Below, piece by piece: positions 4,801 to 63,001 of a DNA stretch of 64,000 nucleotides; within the stretch, counting starts at the first letter, position 1, and each line of letters opens with the position of its first letter. The translations under genes were made by a program, and so were the position numbers. Under the pieces are notes generated by a model. It did not search any database, had not been told where the DNA came from, and saw nothing but the letters and a program-made list of their open reading frames with translations. Origin of the DNA: Chrysogorgia sp. JL179-B06 (lineage: Eukaryota; Cnidaria; Anthozoa; Scleralcyonacea; Chrysogorgiidae); NCBI GenBank assembly GCA_035772405.1, contig JAYKKM010000309.1:2070001-2134000 (forward strand). Reading direction: 5' to 3'.

Positions 4801-7800
4801 CGGATGAACTCAAACAGCTCGACCTCATGTTGTGTATTTCTTCTCTTTTCTATGTTCCTCCAACAGAGCCCCATCCTTGTGACAGCTCGCCATGTCAAAA
4901 CGGTGGAACGTGTTCGTCACAAGGAGACTCGTACGCCTGCACCTGTCCAAGTAATTATGAAGGAAACAACTGCGAAGTCAAAAAGTGTAAGTCAACTGTT
5001 AACACTGTTTCATATATACATACAGTACTGCTCAAAATTAACCTAACGAAAAACGCGTTCGAAATGCATTCCGCTGGAGGTTTGAATATCGTGACCTAAT
5101 CGGTCCCTGTTCGGTGATCTTCGCTGTTTTTAGACCCGTTAGCGTCAGAATGTAGTTCGTTTTCTTTATGCGATTCGTCATGTGAATCAAATCTCTTCGG
5201 CCTGTCTCAACACACTGGGATCATCTAAACAAGAGAAAATGATAAACTTGGGTAAAATCACCCCTTCAAAGAAAGACGGCAGATTCAATGTACTTTCTCT
5301 TTTATTCTCGTTTAATAACTTCTTATTAACCGAGAGCGCGGTCATTACGGGAAAATATCAGACCGAGGCCTTGACAGTACGGACCGAGCCCGTAGGGCGT
5401 GGTTCGTACATAAAAGACCGAGGTCGATCTGATATTTTTCCCGTAATGACCAAGCGGTCAAGGTTAATAAGAGGTTTACTATATGGCATGGCTTTTTTAA
5501 ACAACATACTTTACATACGTTTTGAGTGACAGAATCGTCATTTTCAATCTTGTACTTGTTCTTCTGTTGCTTTCATGATAGTAAGACTCTTTTAGACTGT
5601 TCGTCGTCCGACTCGTACATGATTTAGAGTAGTGCTTAGTTTACTAAATTCCTTCAATTTTTGCTGCTGTTCAAAGTTTCCTAGTTCGGTTTGTTCTTTG
5701 TAAACAAAATGGCTGACAAAATCTGCAATCCGGACATGTCCATTACCGGGAAATAACGGACCGGCACGTGACATGTCTCATTTCATGACGTGCCATTTCA
5801 CCGGAAGTAGCTTGTGCCATATAATAATAAATCATATACCACAAGCCCAGCAACGATTTAAATTTTGACAATTGGCTAAATCAGAAATTAAAGGGATACT
5901 GCAGCCAAAATACAAATGTAGTTGATCATATGAAAGATCTTACTGACTTCAGTTTATTTCCAAAGTTTTTGAAAATTTGAGGATTTTGACGCCATATTGG
6001 TTTGAAAATATGACGTCATTGAGTGATTATTTATCGACATATGAACTACATTTGTATTTTGAATGGAGTATCCATGAACACATTCAAGTGATTGTTGTTG
6101 CCACTCTGGCCGTGTGCAAGTAAACCGATAACGAAAACGGCAGGGTAAGACGTTACAAAGAGATGAAGAGGAGTCGTTAATAGCTTGGTATAGAATATTT
6201 TAAATTATATTTAATAATCTTTATACACGGTAACCAAGTCAGTCCACATACAGAGAAGAATGTAAAAAAATGTTAAAAACTAATTAAATAGTAAATGAGG
6301 ATCTAAAATTAGATATATATTTAGTGATTTGAAAAAAATATGTACAATAAATTACAGTATGATTTTCTTATAGATAGTTGTTTTCGTGATTTAAGTTCCA
6401 CAACATGGCACCTCGATACCCAAAAGTTCGTTTCATCGCATTAGTGTTAGGCTTGGGGAGCATTAGAGTATTGTTGTTACTCCTCAAATCGTAACAATCC
6501 CGATGAGATAACCTGAAAAAGTCGCCGAGATTTGAAACCCCACCAATATTTTTATTGACTAAGGAGAAGAGTTGTTCATCCTTTCTACACTGAAGCGTTT
6601 CCCAACCCACTTTAGATAAAGTTTCTGTTGCTGATGAGTAATAACTGTCATCGGTTACAACCCGAGCAGCCTCATTCTGTAATTGTTGCAGTTGAGTTTT
6701 TAATTCGGCCGAACAATTGTCTCAAACAAGAGAACAATAATCTAAATGAGGCAAAGCTAAAACTTTAGCCTTTAAACAATATTTCCAGACTTGCGTTACT
6801 AATCATTCTCTTTGCTCGTCGTAAAACACCTATGCTCTTAGACACTTTTTTGCATACATGATTAATATATGTTTTCCATGTAATATTTTCATCAATAAAA
6901 ACCCCAAGATTTTTCGTATTATATAGATACGATCAATAATTTGATTATTGATGAACACATGGGATCTGTACCAATACGTGATCTTTTTCTAGATCCAATT
7001 AGCATGTATTCCGATTTACTGGCATTCAATATTAATTTGTTCGCTAAAAGCTAAGCCAATAATGCCAGTTGTTTAATTCTCTATTTAACTTGGCTAGAAT
7101 ATAATAGAATAGAATAGAATAGAATGGAATGGAATGGAATGGATGGAATGGATGGAATGGATGGCCCGGAATGGGAATGGGAATGGGAATATAGAGTGGG
7201 AATGTAGAGTAGAGAGAGTAGAGAGAGTAGAGAGAGTAGAAAGAGTAGAAAGAGTAGAAAGAGTAGAAAGAGTAGAGAGAGTAGAGAGAGTAGAGAGAGT
7301 AGAGAGAGTAGAGAGAGTAGAGAGAGTAGAGAGAGTAGAGAGAGTAGAGAGAGTAGAGAGAGTAGAGAGAGTAGAGAGAGTAGAGAGAGTAGAGAGAGTA
7401 GAGAGAGTAGAGAGAGTAGAGAGAGTAGAGAGAGTAGAGAGAGTAGAGAGAGTAGAGAGAGTAGAGAGAGTAGAGAGAGTAGAGAGAGTAGAGAGAGTAG
7501 AGAGAGTAGAGAGAGTAGAGAGAGAGTAGAGAGAGTAGAGAGAGTAGAGAGAGTAGAGAGAGTAGAGAGAGTAGAGAGAGTAGAGAGAGAGTAGAGAGAG
7601 TAGAGAGAGTAGAGAGAGAGTAGAGAGAGTAGAGAGAGTAGAGAGAGAGAGTAGAGAGAGAGAGTAGAGAGAGAGAGTAGAGAGAGAGAGTAGAGAGAGA
7701 GAGTAGAGAGAGAGAGTAGAGAGAGAGAGAGTAGAGAGAGAGAGTAGAGAGAGAGAGAGTAGAGAGAGAGAGTAGAGAGAGAGTAGAGAGAGAGTAGAGA

Positions 7801-8735
7801 GAGAGTAGAGAGAGAGTAGAGAGAGAGAGTAGAGAGAGAGAGTAGAGAGAGAGAGTAGAGAGAGAGAGTAGAGAGAGAGAGTAGAGAGAGAGTAGAGAGA
7901 GAGTAGAGAGAGAGTAGAGAGAGAGTAGAGAGAGAATAGAGAGAGAGTAGAGAGAGAGTAGAGAGAGAGTAGAGAGAGAGTAGAGAGAGAGTAGAGAGAG
8001 AGTAGAGAGAGAGTAGAGAGAGAGAGAGTAGAGAGAGAGTAGAGAGAGAGTAGAGAGAGAGTAGAGAGAGAGTAGAGAGAGAGAGTAGAGAGAGAGAGTA
8101 GAGAGAGAGAGTAGAGAGAGAGAGTAGAGAGAGAGAGTAGAGAGAGAGAGTAGAGAGAGAGTAGAGAGAGAGTAGAGAGAGAGTAGAGAGAGAGTAGAGA
8201 GAGAGTAGAGAGAGAGTAGAGAGAGAGTAGAGAGAGAGTAGAGAGAGAGTAGAGAGAGAGTAGAGAGAGAGTAGAGAGAGAGTAGAGAGAGAGTAGAGAG
8301 AGAGTAGAGAGAGAGTAGAGAGAGAGAGTAGAGAGAGAGTAGAGAGAGAGTAGAGAGAGAGGAGAGAGAGAGTAGAGAGAGAGTAGAGAGAGAGTAGAGA
8401 GAGAGTAGAGAGAGAGTAGAGAGAGAGAGTAGAGAGAGAGAGTAGAGAGAGAGAGTAGAGAGAGAGAGTAGAGAGAGAGAGTAGAGAGAGAGAGTAGAGA
8501 GAGAGAGTAGAGAGAGTAGAGAGAGAGTAGAGAGAGAGTAGAGAGAGAGTAGAGAGAGAGTAGAGAGAGAGTAGAGAGAGAGTAGAGAGAGAGTAGAGAG
8601 AGAGTAGAGAGAGAGAGTAGAGAGAGAGTAGAGAGAGAGCAGAGAGAGAGCAGAGAGAGCAGAGAGAGTAGAGAGAGAGTAGAGAGAGAGTAGAGAGAGA
8701 GTAGAGAGAGAGTAGAGAGAGAGTAGAGAGAGAGT

Positions 8736-8766
<31 letters not shown>

Positions 8767-11700
8767 AGAGAGTAGAGAGAGAGTAGAGAGAGAGTAGAGA
8801 GAGAGTAGAGAGAGAGTAGAGAGAGAGTAGAGAGAGAGTAGAGAGAGAGTAGAGAGAGAGTAGAGAGAGAGTAGAGAGAGAGTAGAGAGAGAGTAGAGAG
8901 AGAGTAGAGAGAGTAAGTAGAGAGAGTAGAGAATAGAATCCTTCGGGGAATAAGAAACACAGTTATTTGTTGAACTAATCTGCATGCATATCTTTCACTT
9001 TATTTCAGGGTGCGCAATTAATATAAAGAAAAGAGGATGCTTCAAAACCCCTCCGATTGCCCAACGTGAGAGGTTGCTATTTAGTCAGCGAGACAACATT
9101 GACTGGGGCAATGGCTGGGATAACTTTATCGAAAACGTTAACTGCGAGTAAGTATAGCGCACTAATCTTAACACTCGTGCCCAGATCTCTTTGCGGACCT
9201 ATGTATATAGTCAACGAAATCTCGATTTGTGACGTTTTGTGACGTAAAAGTTTTATCATGTGTATTAAATCGAGACATAACCATAGTTGGCACACTGCTC
9301 ACATATGTTTGTTTTAAAGCCTGGTTTCCATATTGTAGTAATTGTTGTAATTCAGTCGGCGACTATCGCCGATCAAGTCTTATAACAATTACAACTGTAT
9401 GGAAACGCGTGTTGTAATTGTTGTAATTCAATCGGAGATCGATCGGCGACTGTTGTAGAAGTTGAATCAACTTCTAGAAGTTGGTTCAACTTCTACAACA
9501 ATTACAACAGTTGCCGATGCGATAACAGTTAATGGAAACATCAGTCGCTGACAGTCGCCGACTGCAGTGGGGTAGCCTGCAGCCGTACTCAATTACAAGG
9601 GCACTCCCTGGGCACTACTCCAAAGCTTTGATCGCGCCGTGCAAGAGTGAAGCCTGAGACCAGCTAGGAGGGGCAGGGCATACCATTACGCCCCGAAAAA
9701 TGTTCAAACTCTAGAGTCTTTGAAATGGTATTTCCAGCATTTTGAGAAAGTAGAATATTTGATTTCGGTTGGACAAATTTGTTTCTTTAATTATTGCCAA
9801 AAAGCAGGAAACAAGGGAATCAGAGTTATATATAGAACATTAGACAAAGAACGCTAGATGGTTATTGTTTAATATATGTAATGATAGTTTTAGTCAGGAA
9901 GGATGGTCCATTAGTCCAGGCTCAGGATTCAGTGGTATGGGAAGACTGGATTGGTATGGTGTTCCGTTTTCCGATAAATTACAAATAAATAAAAACAAAC
10001 TTGAAATACCATGGCATTATGCACTTGCAAGATTGTCAATAAAAATATCATGCTTTGGCTATGCATGTATATACTTGCCAAAATACAAAATACTTTTTAC
10101 TAGGGCCTTCACGACGTTTACCAGGACCTGGCCCCTCTAGGCCCTGGTCTAGCTACGCCACTGGCCGACTGTCGGCGATAGAAAAGTGTCACATGATGGT
10201 AAATAACCAATCAGCATCAAGCGTTGCGTTGCCAGGCATCCACATTGCCAAGTCTTCAGTCTTTCACTTTCCAATCACTTTTACTTCACGTGTTTGCAAG
10301 TCACTTCGTATTAAGATATATCTAAGAATAAGTGAAATGGATAGTTTAATAGCTGACGAGCGGTTCATCGATGTTGTTCGTGAGTATACCCAGCTGTATA
10401 TATTCCTACACTCGAAATTTTCCTTCACCATAAATCCTGAGAACATGTAGTTCAATCGAGTGAAATGCCAAATATTACCTATAATATACCCAGAATCTTA
10501 TCCCGGCATTACCACCACTATATATACAGAACTCGTGACTAAGCTCTCGGCAACGGCTTCCGTAGCTCAGTGGTCAGAGCACTGCACTAGCAATCGCAGG
10601 GTCGCGGGTTCAATTCCTACCGGAAGGCCGCTAAGTTGCAATTTTCGCAACTGGTCCCGGTTTGGTCTTAAAATGTATATATTCCTACACTCGAAATTTT
10701 CCTTCACCATAAATCCTGAGAACATGTAGTTCAATCGAGTGAAATGCCAAATATTACCTATATCTACCAAAGATCGTCGGTTGAATTTCGCGACAAAAAC
10801 AAGAAATTAAATTCTTGGCGCCGAGTGGCAGTTTCAACATAATTCGGCGATTACTTAACCGCGGCGGCGTCCTGAGTACTAGGGAGAAATCGGCGTCTGA
10901 ATTTACAACAATTACAACTATATGGAAACCAGGCCTAACCGCGCGCCTATTGTTGATATGTTAGGGTTGTGATCGGCAACTTTGAGTTCAAAAATGAAGC
11001 AGTCAGCTCCGAGCACAAATTCTGAAAATTTCATTTTATAATTGGTAAAAGTAAATAGGGCTATACAACAATATATCTTGCGCTTGTGTTGCGATATCTC
11101 AGTCGTTTGAGAGCATAATAAAAAAAAATCCATCTATCTTATTGTGTGTCACCATTAAGGGCTTTTCAACACTCAATTACAAAAATTGGTGAATATACTA
11201 AAAAGAAGATTAATTACGTATATACCGTAAACTGCGGAATATAAGCCCCTCCGTTTATAAGCCCCCCGTTTATAAGCCCATCTATCCCCTCGAATATAAG
11301 CCCCCCACCCCATCTCTCTGGTCAGCACTTGTTTCCAACCACCAAACTGACGTGACATCATTTTATCAACTAATCTCACCTTTAACAAACGAATTCTAAT
11401 CCTAACCCTAGCCCTAACAAAGCACTAACCCTAACCTTAAAAAGAAGGAAAAAACGAAGGACAAAATGACGCCATGTCAGTTTGACAGATGGAAACAAGT
11501 ATTTGCCCATCTTTCTTACTAGTAATGTAATCTTACTGACTTTTGGGCTTTGGAGGTGTAACAGTTTACTCAGTATATCAGCCTGGCTATGCCGGTTTTC
11601 GATTATTTTATTTATTTCAATGTTTAGTGTGAGTGAGACAATACAAGTTGTGTTGACAGCAGGAATCTGACCTGTTGACATACAGTTATTTGTGACGCAA

Positions 11701-13580
11701 ATGGGAAAATTAAATATACAAGCGAATGAAAAAATCCCATATCATAGCAGTTCGATCATTTCCAAACGTTTTTTATTCCGCTTATAAGCCCCACGGCCGA
11801 ATATAAGCCCCCCGTTTATAAGCCCACCCAAAACCCCTAACGAAATTGTATAAGCCCAGGGCTTATATTCCGCAGTTTACGATATATATATATATATATT
11901 TACATGTGTGAGTTAAAACAGTATCAAAATAAGCTAGAGTAATCAACTAATAATATATTTATAAATTCGAATAAAAATTGTCTAACATAAATGCTCTAAG
12001 AACCTTTTTAAAATTACCAAGAGATGGGATCTGCTTTATAGTTCATTATCCAATTTGTTCCATATTTTACCGTGCTTTTTTGTAAAAGGTTCTCTGACCT
12101 GAGTCAATTCTAAACAACGGATCGTTTAAGGTGGTCTTACACCCAAAATATTAGAATTGGGCTAATTTTTTTAAATGTCCATACTATTGAGATACTTAAT
12201 GATATAAGAATAGATAGTCAAAATAATTTTTGTGATTGGATACATAGAAATGTAGAAAATTGAGAAAATTCTAAGACTAGTCTGGTTTTGTTGACTTAGC
12301 AACACACTTAGCAACGAACGTTTGGATAATTCCAATAATTATAGTTCCAATAAATATATAATAGTTCCAATAATTAATGGTAATCTTTTACCATTAATAG
12401 TTCTTGCAGGAGAGACACTTTTGCTCACTTAATTACAAAAACTATTTAGATTACTTCAAACACGTAACTTTAAAGTCATTTTCTCAAATCCCGAAATTCA
12501 AGAAAAAGCGAATATTTCAAAAAGCATATCTCATTACGTTTTGATCAATTGTTCTGAAATTTTCAATGCTGAAAGATACAAACAATGTCTAGGAGGTAAA
12601 CCTATAAAATTGACAAGTATTATAAAGCTTATTCCTCTATAATATCTATATATTATTATATATTATTATATATATTATTATATTCCTATATATATCTACC
12701 CGCATGCTTGCTTAATTTTAAAAAATTCCTATTTTTGTGGAAAATTTAAAAAAATTTTAAAAACAATGATAAATGTTCCACTTTTTAGGTTTAGCTCCGA
12801 AACCATGTATTCATTAATAAAATAACCCATGAAAAACATTTCCCTGACCATTCCTTCATGAGATATCATGTCTGAAAATAAGGGTTCTTAATCACTATGG
12901 GGGCAATTGTCTTGGTTACCATGGCAACACAAGAGTAGAGCACAGTATTTTCTGGGTCAAACTTTCACATTATCTAAATTTAAAGGGGAAAAGATTTGGG
13001 TGTAAGACCACCTTAAAAGCTCTCGGAGCGTTTACTGAACTTATTACATTAATAACTGGGTGCACAACCATTAAAACATGAATAGGTCAGTACTGTATTC
13101 CTGTACAATAATAATTGTTCCACTGGTAAACCAGTTGAGTTGCTGCAGCGCACAATCCTTTCAAATATGTTTACGAAGACTCTCAGACTCTCTTGATAAT
13201 AAATATAAAGATATATCTATGTACAGTAAAATTGTAAAACTTTTTTTTTTTTTGGGCAGTTGTGCTGAAGCAGCTAAAGCCGCCGGTTTTAAATACTTCT
13301 GCATCGAGTTTTATGGTGAATGTTGGGGATACAACAATATTAAACTTGCCACCCAAAGCAAAGCGCCGACACAGTGTTGGAGTAAAAGACCTGACTATAC
13401 AAAGTGCAAAGACGGGAACCCTAACGAAACAACTGTTTGTGTGGGAGTTAATTGGCATGGGTATGTCTACGAATTGGTGAGTTAACTTAACAATATTTAT
13501 ACACAGACGATACGTGGACAATCGTCAAGCTCATATCCTCAGAAAAATGATTCTGAGTCCCGTACAGGAATCGAACCTGC

Positions 13581-13677
<97 letters not shown>

Positions 13678-13681
13678 TATA

Positions 13682-13717
<36 letters not shown>

Positions 13718-13917
13718 AAGTGGTCTTACCTCAAAACGATAAAAGCTGCAACTGTCAGTTTCACGCAAGGCGATCTTCAGGCGCGAAGATCGCCTGGCGT
13801 GAAACTGACAGTTGCGGCTTTTATCATTTTGAGGTAAGACCACTTTCACTATATTCGCTCTACCTTTATGGTATTGAGCACTTTCAACGTTCCGTGAACA
13901 ACATCACATTCGTTTTA

Positions 13918-13957
<40 letters not shown>

Positions 13958-16263
13958 TCATTGTAACCTTCGCTCTCCATCTGAGTCTCGTTAGCTCAAT
14001 GGTTAGAGCGTCTCACCGGCAATCAGAAGGTTACAATAAACAGAATCATTTTTCTGAGGATATGAGCTTGACGATCGTCACGTATATCTGCATTCTGTCT
14101 ACTCCGAGCTCTCCCACATTCACTACAACATATACATTAACGCAATATTTATACACTTCTAACTTAATAATATTTATATAATAAAACCGAAAACCCTAAA
14201 AAAAAATTATGAAGTACGGTTTAATAAACAAGCAGCAGTGCGTAGTCCGACTTATTTAGATCTGATAAAAAATGTGCTGCGAGTTTATTATAAACGGCAT
14301 AAAAAACGCGACCCATTTGATAAGTTCATTGGCGTAGTATAATTTTGAAAATCAATGTTGTCTATAAGACGAGAAAATCAAAGATAAAGTTTATGTAAAT
14401 CAGGACGAATCTTTATCACATATGAAAACCTACAACACGATACCTATGAAGGTATATAGACGAGTTTCTTAAATGTCTTCAACCGATCTTTATATATAAT
14501 ACATCAACTTGGAATTCATGCACTGTTCAAAATTGGATCGCGTTGTTTTGTCTCCACATCTACCGATAGAAATAGCCTCGTATGGAACAGCCTTCTCGAC
14601 GAAACATTTCTCTCAAAGCACGTTAGTCCGTTCTCAAAAGCTATATATGCTCTCCTTTCAAATTCATAAGCACAACAACATGTTTTTTGTCAATTTGAGA
14701 TCAGCTTAGTTCCTATAGTCCTATAGGGATTGAAGCTGTTTTATCAGGTGTAAATCACTTTTGGTACTATATACATAAAATATTTTCCAGGAAAAGTTGT
14801 ATTTTTAACAAAAATCAGTGACAAAGTATACCTTTCACTGATGGATACCGATGTTTAGAGAAATGGTAATGAAAAAAAAAAACAAGCAAACATGATTTTG
14901 TATAGCATCTTGTAGTATTGTTTTCTGAGAATGCATTTTGTAGCAACCTCGCCATCTTCAAACACTATTCAGTCTCTCTTATTTCTCCATATATTTTAAT
15001 GAAATCTTCACCACAGACTCTTTGCATGAATATCTAGGGAATGATGATAGGAATTTCGAATCGATTAAAACTTGTTGAATTATCTGACATTATTAATATT
15101 GCGAAAATTGAAAAACATGAAAAAAGCGTGACAGAAAATAGCTGAGCACTTAATCTTGAAAGTGTTACCATCAGAATATGCCTAAACATACAAGTTATAA
15201 ACTCTGCAACTTCCAGGACCCTATATCTGAAAATGCCTGAGTAATCAAACTCTCGCCTTGCTGGTCATTTTGATCGGTCACATTATGACATTAAGCAAAA
15301 GAACAAACTAATTGCTCAAAAGGCGAAGTGGAAATAAATTCAATTGCGAGCGTCAAAACTGTCAAAACCATCGCCTGCAACTGTCAAAACCCAACACTGT
15401 TATGTTATGTTTCTTTTACTATATCAATGAAATGAGGCGTCGCCTGCACGCAACGAACTTGTTTGAATTTATTGACGACAGACCCCGGATTCATGAATTA
15501 ACAAGCGTCGCATAATTCCGAAACTTTCCAGAGAGGAATCGACAAAGAACATCTACTTTATAGAGTAAAATGAATGTGGATTGCTAATTAAATAAATTAA
15601 ACTGAAAAGTTCAAGCAGTTCATTTGCGTTGACACAATACCAAGGCTGAGCGTGCCGTTTCCATCTCGCACCACCGCTTATAAATGATTTTCAAATTGCT
15701 CCAGATAATTATAGGTGACGGTTTCGTACATTTTCAGTCTTGCATCGCGTGTAAATGCAACGGCTAACTGAGCTAAAGCGCAATGCATTTTACGTGAAGG
15801 AGTTTACCGATTTCAATTACGGAATTAAGACTTTTTTTCAGGCTTTTAGCTGAATAATTTGTCCGGTCATAAAAGCGGCATGTCCGAGCTAAAGTTGACT
15901 TGGCCGGTCATCTTGACCGGTGACCAGCTAGCAGTTATTTCGCGCCCTTTAGAAGAATTAATGAAAAATAACACTTGTGTTTGGTGAAATATTCATAAAA
16001 CCACTCAAAGTATACACTTGTGGTTGTATACGAATGTTTAGCCAAAGACGCGTGCAATTTTTCATTAAATTCCCCTCGAACAGTGCCCAGTGATAATATT
16101 TCCTATGCTAATCATGGCACCCTTTCATACCGTCTCTAACCAACAACCAACCAATCGACCAACCAACCCACCAACCAAACGAACCAACCAACATAAATTA
16201 ACTTTAAAACATTAATTAACTTTAGTAACATTAATCTCTTCATGCTCTATCTTTCAGGTGTAA
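1669..16263 (+). CDS. Gene 1 (partial 5'): secreted F5/8C-EGF-WSC-like protein, spliced
   Basis: Gene-level entry for five exons: 1669-1810, 4867-4986, 9009-9147, 13260-13476 and 16258-16263 (coding part). Phases chain without conflict: 0 in, 1, 1, 2, 0, then GTG TAA. The product would be an extracellular protein with an F5/8 type C (discoidin) domain, one EGF domain and a C-terminal WSC-like cysteine-rich domain, ending just after that domain. F5/8C domains usually bind carbohydrate or phospholipid and EGF modules act as spacers; a role in adhesion, matrix or lectin-like recognition is inferred. The signal peptide and first half of F5/8C must lie upstream of the window, by analogy with gene 2 (30.4-58.5 kb), whose exons and introns are clearly homologous. 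Introns are swollen by tandem arrays and MITEs. No stop or frameshift is seen in the joined exons. Confidence 0.75.
1993..2869. mobile_element. palindromic MITE with CCGGATA-type termini
   Basis: Both ends are built from nested copies of TATCCGG/CCGGATA words: left ATCCGAATACCGGATTTG, right CGGATACTAAATCCGG followed by TGCAACCC. No ORF lies inside. The homologous intron of gene 2 (45,705-45,725) has the flank GTGCTTTTTACTAT joined directly to other sequence, so this element inserted in gene 1 only. The GGGTTGCACCGG end recalls hAT-type MITEs, but no target duplication is clear. Confidence 0.6.
3001..4744 (+). repeat. 18/19-bp minisatellite, about 94 units
   Basis: Units alternate between TTTTATTTCCTATAAACTG (19 bp) and TTTTATTTCCTATATCTG (18 bp), with minor variants (ACAATCTG, GTCTG). 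The array ends about 120 bp before the EGF exon acceptor at 4867. Gene 2 has one or two units of the same word at the same position upstream of its EGF exons (48,015; 50,435; 53,665-53,695), so the array is a local expansion of a pre-existing seed. Confidence 0.95.
4867..4986 (+). CDS. Gene 1 exon: EGF-like domain
   Basis: A symmetric phase 1-1 exon of 120 bp, between acceptor CTCCAACAG and donor GTAAGT. It encodes [15 protein letters not shown] then [14 protein letters not shown], with all six EGF cysteines in the spacing C-x4-C-x5-C-x8-C-x-C-x8-C. It carries the O-glucose consensus C-x-S-x-P-C (CDSSPC) and the O-fucose consensus C-x4-[S/T]-C (CQNGGTC). There is no calcium-binding D-x-[D/N]-E motif before the first Cys. 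Gene 2 has five related exons; this one most resembles the last (53815), with which it shares CPSNYEG and the KK-containing end. Confidence 0.88.
5323..5485. repeat. foldback (inverted repeat) element
   Basis: The arms CTTATTAACC...GGTCATTACGGGAAAATATC and GATATTTTTCCCGTAATGACC...GGTTAATAAG pair with each other over about 50 bp, with a G/C-rich loop (CCGAGCCCGTAGGGC). It is absent from the paralogous gene 2 intron near 55,830, where TTTACTCTTTC continues directly. Confidence 0.65.
6365..7065 (-). pseudogene. degenerate CR1/L2-type LINE 3' fragment
   Basis: On the minus strand, broken frames give the C-terminal part of a non-LTR reverse transcriptase ORF: a [24 protein letters not shown] segment (the usual 'LGV.id..LtW..Hi' motif), [10 protein letters not shown] with frameshifts, then [20 protein letters not shown] close to the end. 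The last motif is typical of CR1/L2-like C termini. The 5' part is missing and there are several stops and shifts, so the copy is dead. Confidence 0.7.
7096..8935 (+). repeat. purine satellite (GAGAGTA/GAGAGAGTA)n with TAGAA leader
   Basis: Starts as (TAGAA)n and (TGGAA)n at 7096-7200, then about 1.73 kb of TAGAGAG repeats with unit lengths of 7, 9 and 11 bp (GA gains and losses). The + strand is almost pure purine apart from T. It gives spurious long ORFs in several frames (SLLSLYSL repeats on the minus strand), which are not genes. It ends 73 bp before exon 9009. Confidence 0.95.
9009..9147 (+). CDS. Gene 1 exon: WSC-like cysteine-rich domain, first half
   Basis: Lies between acceptor CTTTATTTCAG and donor GTAAGT; 139 bp, phase 1 in and phase 2 out. 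It encodes [20 protein letters not shown] followed by [20 protein letters not shown] and ENVNC. The pattern GCFK....R.L......NIDW.N....I..C is the start of a cysteine-rich domain I know from cnidarian and other invertebrate extracellular proteins, resembling WSC/PAN-like folds. The next exon begins with the continuation [13 protein letters not shown]. The homologous exon in gene 2 is 58336-58478 (143 bp). Confidence 0.8.
10396..10480 (+). repeat. direct repeat of SINE tail (first copy)
   Basis: About 80 bp (ATTCCTACACTCGAAATTTT ... GTGAAATGCCAAATATTACC) that recurs almost exactly at 10,676-10,761, downstream of a tRNA-like segment. The two copies flank the tRNA head, as in a tandem SINE pair whose first head is lost. 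Confidence 0.75.
10545..10761 (+). mobile_element. tRNA-derived SINE
   Basis: The head 10,556-10,627 reads as a degenerate tRNA: acceptor-like CTTCCG...CGGAAG, box A TAGCTCAGTGGTCAGAGC, an anticodon-loop-like ACTAGCAATC and box B GGGTTCAATTCC. The T-stem and anticodon stem have mismatches, so I do not call a functional tRNA. An AT-richer body follows (GCAACTGGTCCCGGTTTGG), then the tail that is duplicated at 10,396. Confidence 0.75.
11223..11884. mobile_element. MITE with TACCGTAAACTGCGG terminal inverted repeats
   Basis: Left TACCGTAAACTGCGGAATAT and right ATATTCCGCAGTTTACGATA are inverted repeats, followed inside by repeated TATAAGCCCC words at both ends. TA flanks suggest a Tc1/mariner-type origin. 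It carries an internal CCCTAA-like stretch (11,395-11,440). No transposase ORF. Confidence 0.75.
12126..13016. mobile_element. TTAAGGTGGTCTT-type TIR element, 0.9 kb
   Basis: Left TTAAGGTGGTCTTACACCC and right GGGTGTAAGACCACCTTAA are perfect inverted repeats (about 22 bp including the next bases); the TTAA at each edge may be the target duplication. The interior is AT-rich and non-coding. Elements with the same outer 13 bases lie in the EGF introns of gene 2 (45,931; 48,335; 50,749; 52,083). Confidence 0.8.
13260..13476 (+). CDS. Gene 1 exon: WSC-like cysteine-rich domain, second half
   Basis: Follows a T-run and the acceptor GGGCAG; phase 2 in. It encodes [26 protein letters not shown], then [28 protein letters not shown] and YVYEL. 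The blocks CA..A...GFKYF.I.FYGECW and C.G.....YVY are typical of the second half of this domain. NET is a possible N-glycosylation site. I chose donor GTGAGT at 13477 (phase 0), which keeps the conserved YVYEL end and leads to GTG TAA in the next exon. An alternative donor GTATGT at 13461 (phase 2) would give a different tail, [19 protein letters not shown]. No second copy of this exon was found in gene 2 within the window. Confidence 0.8.
13493..13583 (-). mobile_element. tRNA-derived SINE fragment (3' part, minus strand)
   Basis: Read on the minus strand: box B GCAGGTTCGATTCCTGTACG, then ACTCAGAATCATTTTTCTGA and GAGCTTGACGATTGTCCACG. The same body follows a tRNA head at 13,983 and 62,463 on the plus strand. 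The head is cut off by the (TA)n tract beginning at 13,584. Confidence 0.75.
13584..13712. repeat. (TA)n microsatellite
   Basis: About 129 bp of alternating T/A with two ATAATTATAT interruptions. It abuts a SINE fragment on the left and a hairpin element on the right. Confidence 0.95.
13713..13954. mobile_element. (TA)n-associated hairpin element, copy 1
   Basis: 13,713-13,850 is a near-perfect palindrome: GTGAAAGTGGTCTTACCTCA ... TGAGGTAAGACCACTTTCAC, arms about 60 bp, apex CTTCAGGCGCGAAGATCG. It is followed by a conserved 65-bp unit (TCGCTCTACCTTTATGGTAT, TTGAGCACTTTC) and then (TA)n at 13,919-13,954. Copies with the same order hairpin - unit - (TA)n occur at 26.5 kb, 26.85 kb and 39.35 kb. 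Confidence 0.8.
13983..14165 (+). mobile_element. tRNA-derived SINE, box B lost
   Basis: The head GAGTCTCGTTAGCTCAATGG with box A TAGCTCAATGGTTAGAGCG continues to CACCGGCAATCAGAAGGTT, then jumps to ACAATAAACAGAATCATTTT. The T-arm/box B segment seen in the copy at 13,493 is deleted here. The body GAGCTTGACGATCGTCACGT matches the other copies. Confidence 0.75.
14166..16257 (+). other. last intron of gene 1, no further gene seen
   Basis: No coding segment recognised; short ORFs at 14,509 and 15,312 lack motifs. The 15,945-16,090 segment (AGAAGAATTAATGAAAAATA ... GCGTGCAATTTTTCATTA) is a diverged copy of 2,884-3,010, upstream of the EGF exon. An ACCAACCAACC-rich stretch is at 16,140-16,195. Confidence 0.5.
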
Positions 16264-25639: not shown

Positions 25640-26150
25640 AGGTTGTTTTCCTCGGCAGTGCTGTGCTTTTCATGCAATACGTTTTATAATTGCATTACGG
25701 CAGCTTTGCGCGCGTAAATGTAGATGATATGGAATTTGTTCAACGTTTTAAGCGAGTACGAACGCATTATTTTATCCTGCAGAAACAAAATTGTTAGAAC
25801 CCAACACATTACACAAATATGATCCAAACCATCTGGCATTTGGGTTACTTTAATACTTGAAATTTTACAATGTTTTATTAACACCAACATGAGAAACGTT
25901 GTTTTTATAATTGAGATAGAATATGTTTGCTCCGTAGAAAGTTGGGGAATAGAAATAATCAAGCGATCAAGTGAAATATATATATATATAATATAAATAT
26001 ATATCAAATGAAATAAACTACTGCCAAACGGAGGAAAGATACACTCAGACATTTCGAGCGAAAGCCCTTCATTCACTCTGATATAAATAGGGCTCAGCTG
26101 TATTAAGGCATGGCTGTTGACTTTTTCCAGACATTTTGTCAAACTTAGCA
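25640..26150 (+). repeat. dispersed repeat R1
   Basis: Shares CGGCAGCTTTGCGCGCGTAA, GCAGAAACAAAATTGTTAGA, ATTTCGAGCGAAAGCCCTTC and the intervening order with 30,895-31,400, and with 19,855-20,470 inverted. The ORF in the other strand is a chance frame. Confidence 0.75.
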
Positions 26151-26255
26151 AAGTAGGAACTAATTTACGGGTTTGTTTCCATGACAACAAGGTCACGTGA
26201 CTCATTTGGATGAAAACATAAAACGTTCTTGAGGCACGCGTTATACATAATTATA

Positions 26256-27182
<927 letters not shown>

Positions 27183-27416
27183 ATTTAAACAATTAAACAG
27201 CGTATTTTGATGCAAATATTGATCTAGTTTATCAAGCTAACTTGCCACATTGTATAGCATTACCGTAAATGGAAACTTTTAGCGAATGATTTTTCCTCCA
27301 ATTACAATTTCTCTAATATTTTTGTTTCTGCAAATTGATTCCTACCATTCAACTTAACATGATAAACGTAATTGAAGTTTGCATCAAATAACGCTGTTTA
27401 ATTGTTTAAATTGTAT
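27183..27416. mobile_element. MITE with ATTTAAACAATTAAACAGCG ends
   Basis: Left ATTTAAACAATTAAACAGCG ... TTTTGATGCAAA and right TTTGCATCAAATAACGCTGT ... TTAATTGTTTAAAT are inverted repeats of about 35 bp. The interior is 165 bp and non-coding. It abuts the (TA)n tract. Confidence 0.75.
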
Positions 27417-27857
27417 ATATTCGCGTGCGTGATCAAGAACGTTTTAAGTTTTCATTCAATATGGCCGCCAATGAGTCACGTGACCTTGTTGTCATGGAAA
27501 CGAAACCGTAAATTAGTTCCTACTGTATGATGAATACGTTTTATAAGTTAGACTTACTTTCGACAAAATCTCTGGAAAATAGGAAATCGACAACTGAACT
27601 AGTGTAAACTATAAACCTTACTGAGAATAATATACAGTGCGTATTCAACCTATTGTGGTAAGTTTGAAGCCCTAGACCGACCTCTGAGGCCCTGTTTATA
27701 ACCGCTAGGGTAACCCTAGGAGTAGGGTTACCCTAGCGCCAGGGCGAAAAGATAGCTTGCGTTTATAAGGAAATGATCGGGCTAGGGTAACCATAGGACT
27801 ATAGGGTGAAGTATACTCGCGCCGTCGAGCGTGTACGCGGGAAATTCGAGTGTAAAC

Positions 27858-30470: not shown

Positions 30471-58478
<28,008 letters not shown>

Positions 58479-62378: not shown

Positions 62379-62462
62379 TATACACATTGCTGTAGTGAAT
62401 GTTGGAGAGCTTGGAGTATATAGTGACTACAGTACATATATCAATCGAACCAGTACATCATT

Positions 62463-62560
62463 GAGTCTTGGTAGCTCAATGGTTAGAGCGTCTCACCGGC
62501 AATCAGAAGGTTTCTGAATATACGAGCTTGACGATCGCCCATGTATCGTCTGTTATAATT
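62463..62560 (+). mobile_element. tRNA-derived SINE, box B lost
   Basis: GAGTCTTGGTAGCTCAATGG, GTCTCACCGGCAATCAGAAG, then TTTCTGAATATACGAGCTTG and ACGATCGCCCATGTATCGTC. Same family as 13,493 and 13,983, with a different internal deletion. Confidence 0.75.
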
Positions 62561-62791: not shown

Positions 62792-62892
62792 CGTTATTTA
62801 CCGCTTTGGTGGGTCCGTACTGGAAAAATATTTTCCCTCAGTCTCAGAAGGGAAAATATTTTTCCAGTACGGACCTCCCAGCCGGTAAATAA
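62792..62892. repeat. hairpin (inverted repeat)
   Basis: GTTATTTACCG ... GGTCCGTACTGGAAAAATAT / ATATTTTTCCAGTACGGACC ... CGGTAAATAAC; loop CAGTCTCAGAAG. A further copy of the CCGTACTGG/AGTACGGACCTC word is at 62,698-62,735. Confidence 0.85.
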
Positions 62893-62906
62893 CATATATA
62901 TATATA

Positions 62907-63001
62907 TATGTTATGTATTACCTCGTTCTTTAAAAAATCCCCGCTTTAAATTTCTGTATAATTAGCGGGCTTTTTAAAAGAACGAGGTAATACATAACAT
63001 A
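62907..63001. repeat. hairpin (inverted repeat), MITE-like
   Basis: TATGTTATGTATTACCTCGT ... TCTTTAAAA pairs with TTTTAAAAGA ... ACGAGGTAATACATAACATA; an inner pair CCCGCT/AGCGGG is present. TATA-rich flanks. Confidence 0.85.

Follow-up and report, generated by a model that had tools for sequence, protein, structure and literature searches.

What kind of element sets the same hairpin, followed by the same short unit, between runs of TA dinucleotides at separate loci? The question is raised by positions 13584-13955 of the window (the whole 64-kb stretch of DNA that was analysed), where (TA)n, a 136-bp palindrome, a 69-bp unit and again (TA)n follow one another. An earlier note on this DNA had placed an element of this order near 13.7 kb, and its coordinates hold. 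It had also counted four copies with a long perfect hairpin, and this count needed correction.

Structure of the hairpin modules

Near-perfect hairpins were found in the copies at 13.71, 26.48 and 26.81 kb, the latter two, previously noted near 26.5 and 26.85 kb, both lying on the minus strand. The copy at 39.35 kb has no hairpin: it holds one arm and the unit, and the four hairpins are therefore restated as three plus a half copy. The common plan is a palindrome with arms of about 65 bp, a short TA-rich joint and a conserved unit of about 65 bp, as follows.

13584-13713: (TA)n left of copy 1, not pure (two pure runs, one of 90 and one of 28 bp, separated by a short interruption containing AATT)
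13714-13849, plus strand: hairpin of copy 1, type A (arms 13714-13778 and 13785-13849, 3 mismatches in 65, 6-nt loop)
13850-13918, plus strand: unit of copy 1 (~65 bp, 69 bp here), GCTCTA..TTGAGCACT..
13919-13955: (TA)n right of copy 1, 37 bp
26298-26481: (TA)n adjoining the unit of copy 2, 184 bp, pure
26482-26544, minus strand: unit of copy 2, type B
26545-26698, minus strand: hairpin of copy 2, type B (arms of 64 bp, 0 mismatches in 64, 26-nt centre)
26698-26808: (TA)n separating copies 2 and 3, 111 bp
26809-26874, minus strand: unit of copy 3, type B
26875-26999, minus strand: hairpin of copy 3, type B (arms of 60 bp, 0 mismatches in 60, 5-nt loop)
26999-27182: (TA)n separating copy 3 and hairpin E
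39230-39351: (TA)n left of copy 4, 122 bp
39352-39399, plus strand: copy 4, type A, 3' arm alone
39400-39471, plus strand: unit of copy 4, type A
39472-39638: (TA)n right of copy 4 (tracts 39472-39550 and 39566-39638 flanking an A run)

The proposed fixed order of hairpin, unit and TA, in a dispersed family with two subfamilies, is supported by these copies. Similarity searches of the 64-kb window revealed no further module copies at E 1e-3. Copies 2 and 3 are adjacent and in the same orientation, differing mainly in the hairpin centre and in a 3-bp joint, and may represent one local duplication instead of two insertions. A stop-to-stop open frame of 168 aa crosses copy 1 (13675-14181, plus strand), reading the TA repeat and flank; it was taken for chance.

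Copy 4 (39352-39471) and copy 1, both of type A, have 96.7% identity over 120 bp, and the part of the arm that copy 4 retains shows no difference from the 3' arm of copy 1. The edge of copy 4 corresponds to the second of two GTGAAA direct repeats present in the full copy (13714 and 13799), which fits a slippage deletion of palindrome material, save for one missing base. A retroelement inserting at TA runs (e.g., a Penelope-like or other LINE-dependent short element), with the unit as its 3' end and copy 4 as a 5'-truncated copy, could also explain why the 5' part is missing here and why the conserved unit is one-sided, inverted ends being absent. We nevertheless regard such an origin as decidedly unlikely: the GTGAAA edge, apart from that junction base, suits palindrome deletion, no ribozyme or other Rfam family except one tRNA reached its gathering score in the window, and no reverse transcriptase was seen beside the copies in the 64 kb, the LINE ORFs lying at 41.95-44.83 and 59.76-62.36 kb.

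Association with TA microsatellites

All 12 pure TA runs of at least 20 bp in the 64-kb window lie at the three copy-bearing loci. Together they amount to 908 bp which, with 2-bp margins, is 1.5% of the window. Away from these loci TA runs do not exceed 18 bp (one of them, 16 bp at 62894-62909, sits between hairpins C and D, described below), and in 50 simulations of the window under a first-order Markov model TA runs reached at most 13 bp. Each of the four copies has microsatellite on both outer sides, so that the TA flanking which the earlier note wished to see checked held for every copy within the window, and none lies outside a microsatellite. The association of the copies with long TA runs is beyond chance.

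An unoccupied paralog of the 39-kb locus

The sequences flanking copy 4 (locus 3) recur at a second place in the window, where the module is absent.

32880-33130, minus strand: unoccupied paralog of locus 3, AT run 32977-32992 (16 bp)

The flank 39170-39229 aligns to this site with 50 identities, 10 mismatches and 1 gapped position (score 75, shuffles at most 32, n=1000), and the flank 39639-39756 with 76 identities, 8 mismatches and 41 gapped positions (score 88.5, shuffles at most 36, n=1000). At the insertion point the paralog reads GGTTGATC-ATATATATATAATATA-CCTATAAACTGATCC. Occupied locus 3 carries ~270 bp of TA in three tracts (122, 79 and 73 bp) and the half copy, against 16 bp in the paralog. 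The target was therefore probably a short AT run, the long tracts arriving with or after the insertion. We favour a short TA run as the insertion site, with expansion afterwards, on the evidence of one diverged paralog at which shrinkage of the run or loss of the insert could also have taken place. The description of the family as living inside (TA)n tracts is right insofar as TA lies on both sides of the copies, but long pre-existing tracts are doubtful, the unoccupied paralog having ATATATATATAATATA alone.

For locus 1, the possibility that a tRNA-like SINE had simply been interrupted was also considered and rejected. Two SINE pieces in opposite orientation surround copy 1 (13480-14090), and their relative in the 62.4-62.6 kb region (62418-62558) does not bridge the junction; no unoccupied site is therefore claimed for this locus.

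When the flanks of the three loci were compared with each other, no match was found at E <= 1e-3. Since copies 1 and 4 are nevertheless so alike, it is the module that moved and not its surroundings. Even without a transposase, recombination between TA tracts (by unequal exchange, conversion or circles re-entering other tracts) could have dispersed blocks of palindrome plus TA, with snap-back copying renewing the palindromes. Many flanks are indeed TA, the neighbouring, like-oriented copies 2 and 3 are what such exchange could leave, and the available text of PMC5907723 proposes circles and homologous recombination into microsatellites for the plant SaTar elements. We hold recombination of this kind to be unlikely, as the 16-bp AT run of the locus 3 paralog offers scant homology and defined module ends are preserved among loci with unrelated flanks.

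Two subfamilies whose arms changed together

Types A and B were aligned across hairpin and unit with 64.7% identity over 187 bp (E = 8.5e-8, window search). The units, aligned end to end, reached a score of 20.5, whereas shuffles reached at most 11.0 (n=2000), and 29 of 40 positions are identical in the unit core. Near the apex, the two types have GTTTCA, ATCTTC and AGGC in common. The earlier note had described two hairpin types differing along the arms around a few kept blocks; the types are indeed homologous, but their homology was understated, the apex blocks being common too.

The arms could be aligned over 53 columns, which leaves 12 bases of A and 11 of B unaligned. Across the four arms, 39 columns are identical; in 11 the types differ while both arms within each type agree, and the remaining 3, all in type A, are discordant between arms. 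Because those 11 columns changed in both arms together, the palindromes were kept or renewed during subfamily divergence. Independent drift of the arms since the split of A and B would have made the difference within a copy about as large as that between types; the palindrome was therefore either renewed (by hairpin-templated copying or conversion) or selected.

The joint between hairpin and unit is TA-rich and of variable length (TATATTC and TATATATTC; TCTATTTGC and TCTATTATTTGC). We count the unit as part of the module because it is present in both subfamilies; its origin may lie in an array module that was once separate and has been carried along, or it may serve as a second recognition site. 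The absence of terminal repeats reported earlier was borne out for the module as a whole, hairpin plus unit: the first 30 bp compared with the reverse-complemented last 30 bp revealed no inverted ends in the three full copies (p = 0.10, 0.16 and 0.17). Thus the terminal inverted repeats at both ends by which MITEs are defined are lacking from hairpin plus unit, while the palindrome alone would have them. No target-site duplication beyond TA was seen, the best common words near the junctions being 3-5 bp long.

The long hairpin, the conserved GAGGTAAG and a candidate stem within the unit, in which both bases of one pair have changed, could also point to a functional RNA gene in duplicated copies (a hairpin RNA, a spliced-leader-like RNA or a microRNA precursor). 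Such a gene appears highly improbable to us. The unit stem is no better than shuffles (235 of 500 were as good), copy 4 breaks the pair in question, Rfam matches are mostly to unrelated miRNA families and all under gathering scores, and an association with TA would not be expected. The sub-gathering, mostly miRNA matches obtained at a loose threshold (22 and 40 in two scans) were set aside, many of them falling on both strands as long hairpins give. Reading CTTACCT/AGGTAAG as a spliced-leader or U1-like motif found no support and was rejected.

Other TA-flanked hairpins and arrays

Moreover, three hairpins beyond those of the earlier note adjoin TA.

27183-27411: hairpin E, imperfect (79 identities, 22 mismatches, 13 gapped), with TA on the left and TGTATATATT on the right
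62793-62893: hairpin D, outer ends GTTATTTACCG.., then (AT)8
62910-62998: hairpin C, outer ends GTTATGTATTACCTCG.., with TA to its left and right and no adjoining unit seen

Two of the three have TTACC near both outer ends, starting 5 bases in for hairpin D and extended to TTACCTC in hairpin C; it is absent from the outer 40 bp of hairpin E. Of the 12 occurrences of TTACCTC or its complement in the window, 9 fall within the copies and hairpin C. As a full homolog of A/B, hairpin C was rejected, its similarity not rising above shuffles (p = 0.65 against A and 0.11 against B, the B arm being offset by one base) and TTACCTC being the sole common stretch.

A scan of the TA-masked window for inverted pairs (matches of at least 30 bp and at least 80%, span at most 700 bp) gave 22 pairs, 16 of which are single palindromes; hairpin E is not among the pairs. 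TA adjoins at least one outer end of each of the five palindromes spanning at least 89 bp (copies 1-3, D and C), but of none of the 11 shorter ones. The hairpins form TA-joined, non-nested arrays: copies 2, 3 and E stand in line between TA stretches at 26.3-27.4 kb, and D and C are joined by (AT)8 at 62.8-63.0 kb. The former array lies centrally between the arms of an older, larger inverted pair (26138-26252 and 27409-27553; 104 identities, 11 mismatches and 30 gapped positions), which may itself be a foldback element of greater age whose middle is TA-rich.

Other repeats of the window

The window contains a LINE reverse-transcriptase ORF on the minus strand (41950-44832) and a second LINE ORF region at 59.76-62.36 kb. 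The former has 62 relatives, including two in the octocoral Paramuricea clavata, one in the stony coral Acropora cervicornis and, oddly, one in the bacterium Thiolapillus sp.; its closest relatives, at up to 66% identity, are others than these. The host is likely to be a cnidarian. GDIETCPGP, near its start, is presumably a 2A-like motif. A 2.4-kb direct-repeat block occupies 45700-53950 (start-to-start distances of 2404, 2414 and 1334 for one part, 90-99% in places). The 31-bp matches found at 45.9-52.1 kb (E 0.03 to 0.65) are weak and part of this unrelated repeat, and were rejected as relatives of the module. A minisatellite with long G runs, built of TTACTTTAAGAGGGGCGGCTACTTTCGGGG-type units, lies at 57668-58195 and a 20-bp tandem repeat, CTGACCGTACACGTGACCGA, at 41203-41407. 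The long simple repeat at 7044-8999 has strong GC skew, and its antisense strand reads as long frames without stops, made up of S, L, Y and T; by its appearance it is not a gene. Outside the window, pattern scans of viral and prokaryote genome contigs gave a single match (L001), AT-rich and without a comparable hairpin, which was taken as chance.

A probable non-autonomous hairpin DNA transposon

Taken together, the A/B family probably consists of short non-autonomous hairpin (MITE/foldback) DNA transposons, moved in trans into short TA runs, where the TA then expanded; a mode of action akin to that of the plant SaTar and MuTAnT elements is most likely. Compared with this, the retroelement and pure recombination readings are the weaker ones. 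A transposase encoded elsewhere would recognise the arm blocks CTTACCTCAAAAC and GC..CAACT, and perhaps the unit, and would bring the module into short TA runs. Growth of the TA on either side may follow, during gap repair or by later slippage, and the long tracts could act as landing or recombination sites for more modules, by which TA-joined, non-nested arrays would accumulate. The transposase, the class-II route, the timing of TA growth and the role of the unit are what we infer here from the architecture. ORFs of at least 150 aa in the 64-kb window, judged by eye for mudrA-type proteins, included no transposase or autonomous partner. This negative result speaks against a hairpin DNA transposon, as do the lack of a target-site duplication beyond TA and, unlike TIR-bounded MITEs, the position of the unit outside the palindrome and the want of inverted module ends. 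Further points against it are that hairpin E is without TTACC and that hairpin C shows no similarity to A/B beyond that motif.

More tentatively, several hairpin families (A/B, C and D) that share little but an outer TTACC(TC) could be moved by one transposase into short TA runs that expand, making up an animal (cnidarian) counterpart of SaTar. The one-sided tail of A/B would then be a second recognition site or a structured end, and the element an asymmetric hairpin-plus-tail transposon that departs from the TIR-bounded MITE plan. This is possible, if somewhat doubtful; if true, the elements create the TA microsatellites that house them.

Comparison with known systems

In the open-access literature searched, hairpin elements in TA microsatellites are mainly from plants, and no cnidarian case was recognised. 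Were a cnidarian family to behave in this way, landing in short TA runs and the seeding of long TA tracts would seem to have arisen repeatedly or to belong to a widespread transposase, and elements of this kind would appear to generate TA microsatellites, not merely to occupy them. New here are the unoccupied locus 3 paralog with its 16-bp AT run and the TA-joined hairpin arrays beyond the A/B copies. The one-sided conserved unit is at odds with the plant models.

The comparison with rice Micron made in the earlier note is apt; Micron is now classed as a non-autonomous Mutator-like element (PMC5907723), although MuTAnT is nearer in shape (PMC4486113). The SaTar elements, non-autonomous MULEs that include Micron, are likewise short and TA-flanked and form non-nested, microsatellite-joined arrays, whereas the guayule families measure 400-1700 bp and have TIRs at both ends (PMC5907723). 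Their MULE membership was established by TSDs and autonomous partners (PMC5907723), while the likeness here is one of architecture and TA behaviour. The Ac-mMITEs of pineapple resemble our hairpins in comprising two families with distal TIR sequence alone in common, in their (TA)n flanks and in their TA-joined clusters; they differ in being plant elements bounded by TIRs, with Mutator-type TSDs in copies outside TA (PMC8449440). The same paper mentions a similar bias in mammals, and microsatellite-targeting elements in Lepidoptera are cited by the MuTAnT paper (PMC4486113). Tm1, a Mutator/foldback family of root-knot nematodes, is an animal foldback family with asymmetric outer motifs at its two ends, but 45 of 53 elements bear TSDs of 8-10 bp, the family shows no target preference, and the word microsatellite does not occur in the available text (PMC3169594).

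MuTAnT, a Mutator-like element of Medicago truncatula, is a 292-bp foldback with 144-bp arms found in TA repeats (PMC4486113). It shares with the present family a foldback that is nearly all inverted repeat, (TA)n flanks, two subfamilies and some one-armed copies. It differs in being a plant element whose arms reach 144 bp, which has TSDs of 9 bp outside TA and for which a mudrA partner is known; the available text describes no one-sided unit (PMC4486113). Moreover, its occupied sites are richer in TA than its empty sites (PMC4486113), and empty sites of the maize TAFT elements hold 6-8 bp of TA, as retold in PMC5907723. The difference in TA between occupied locus 3 and its unoccupied paralog goes in the same direction as both of these reports.
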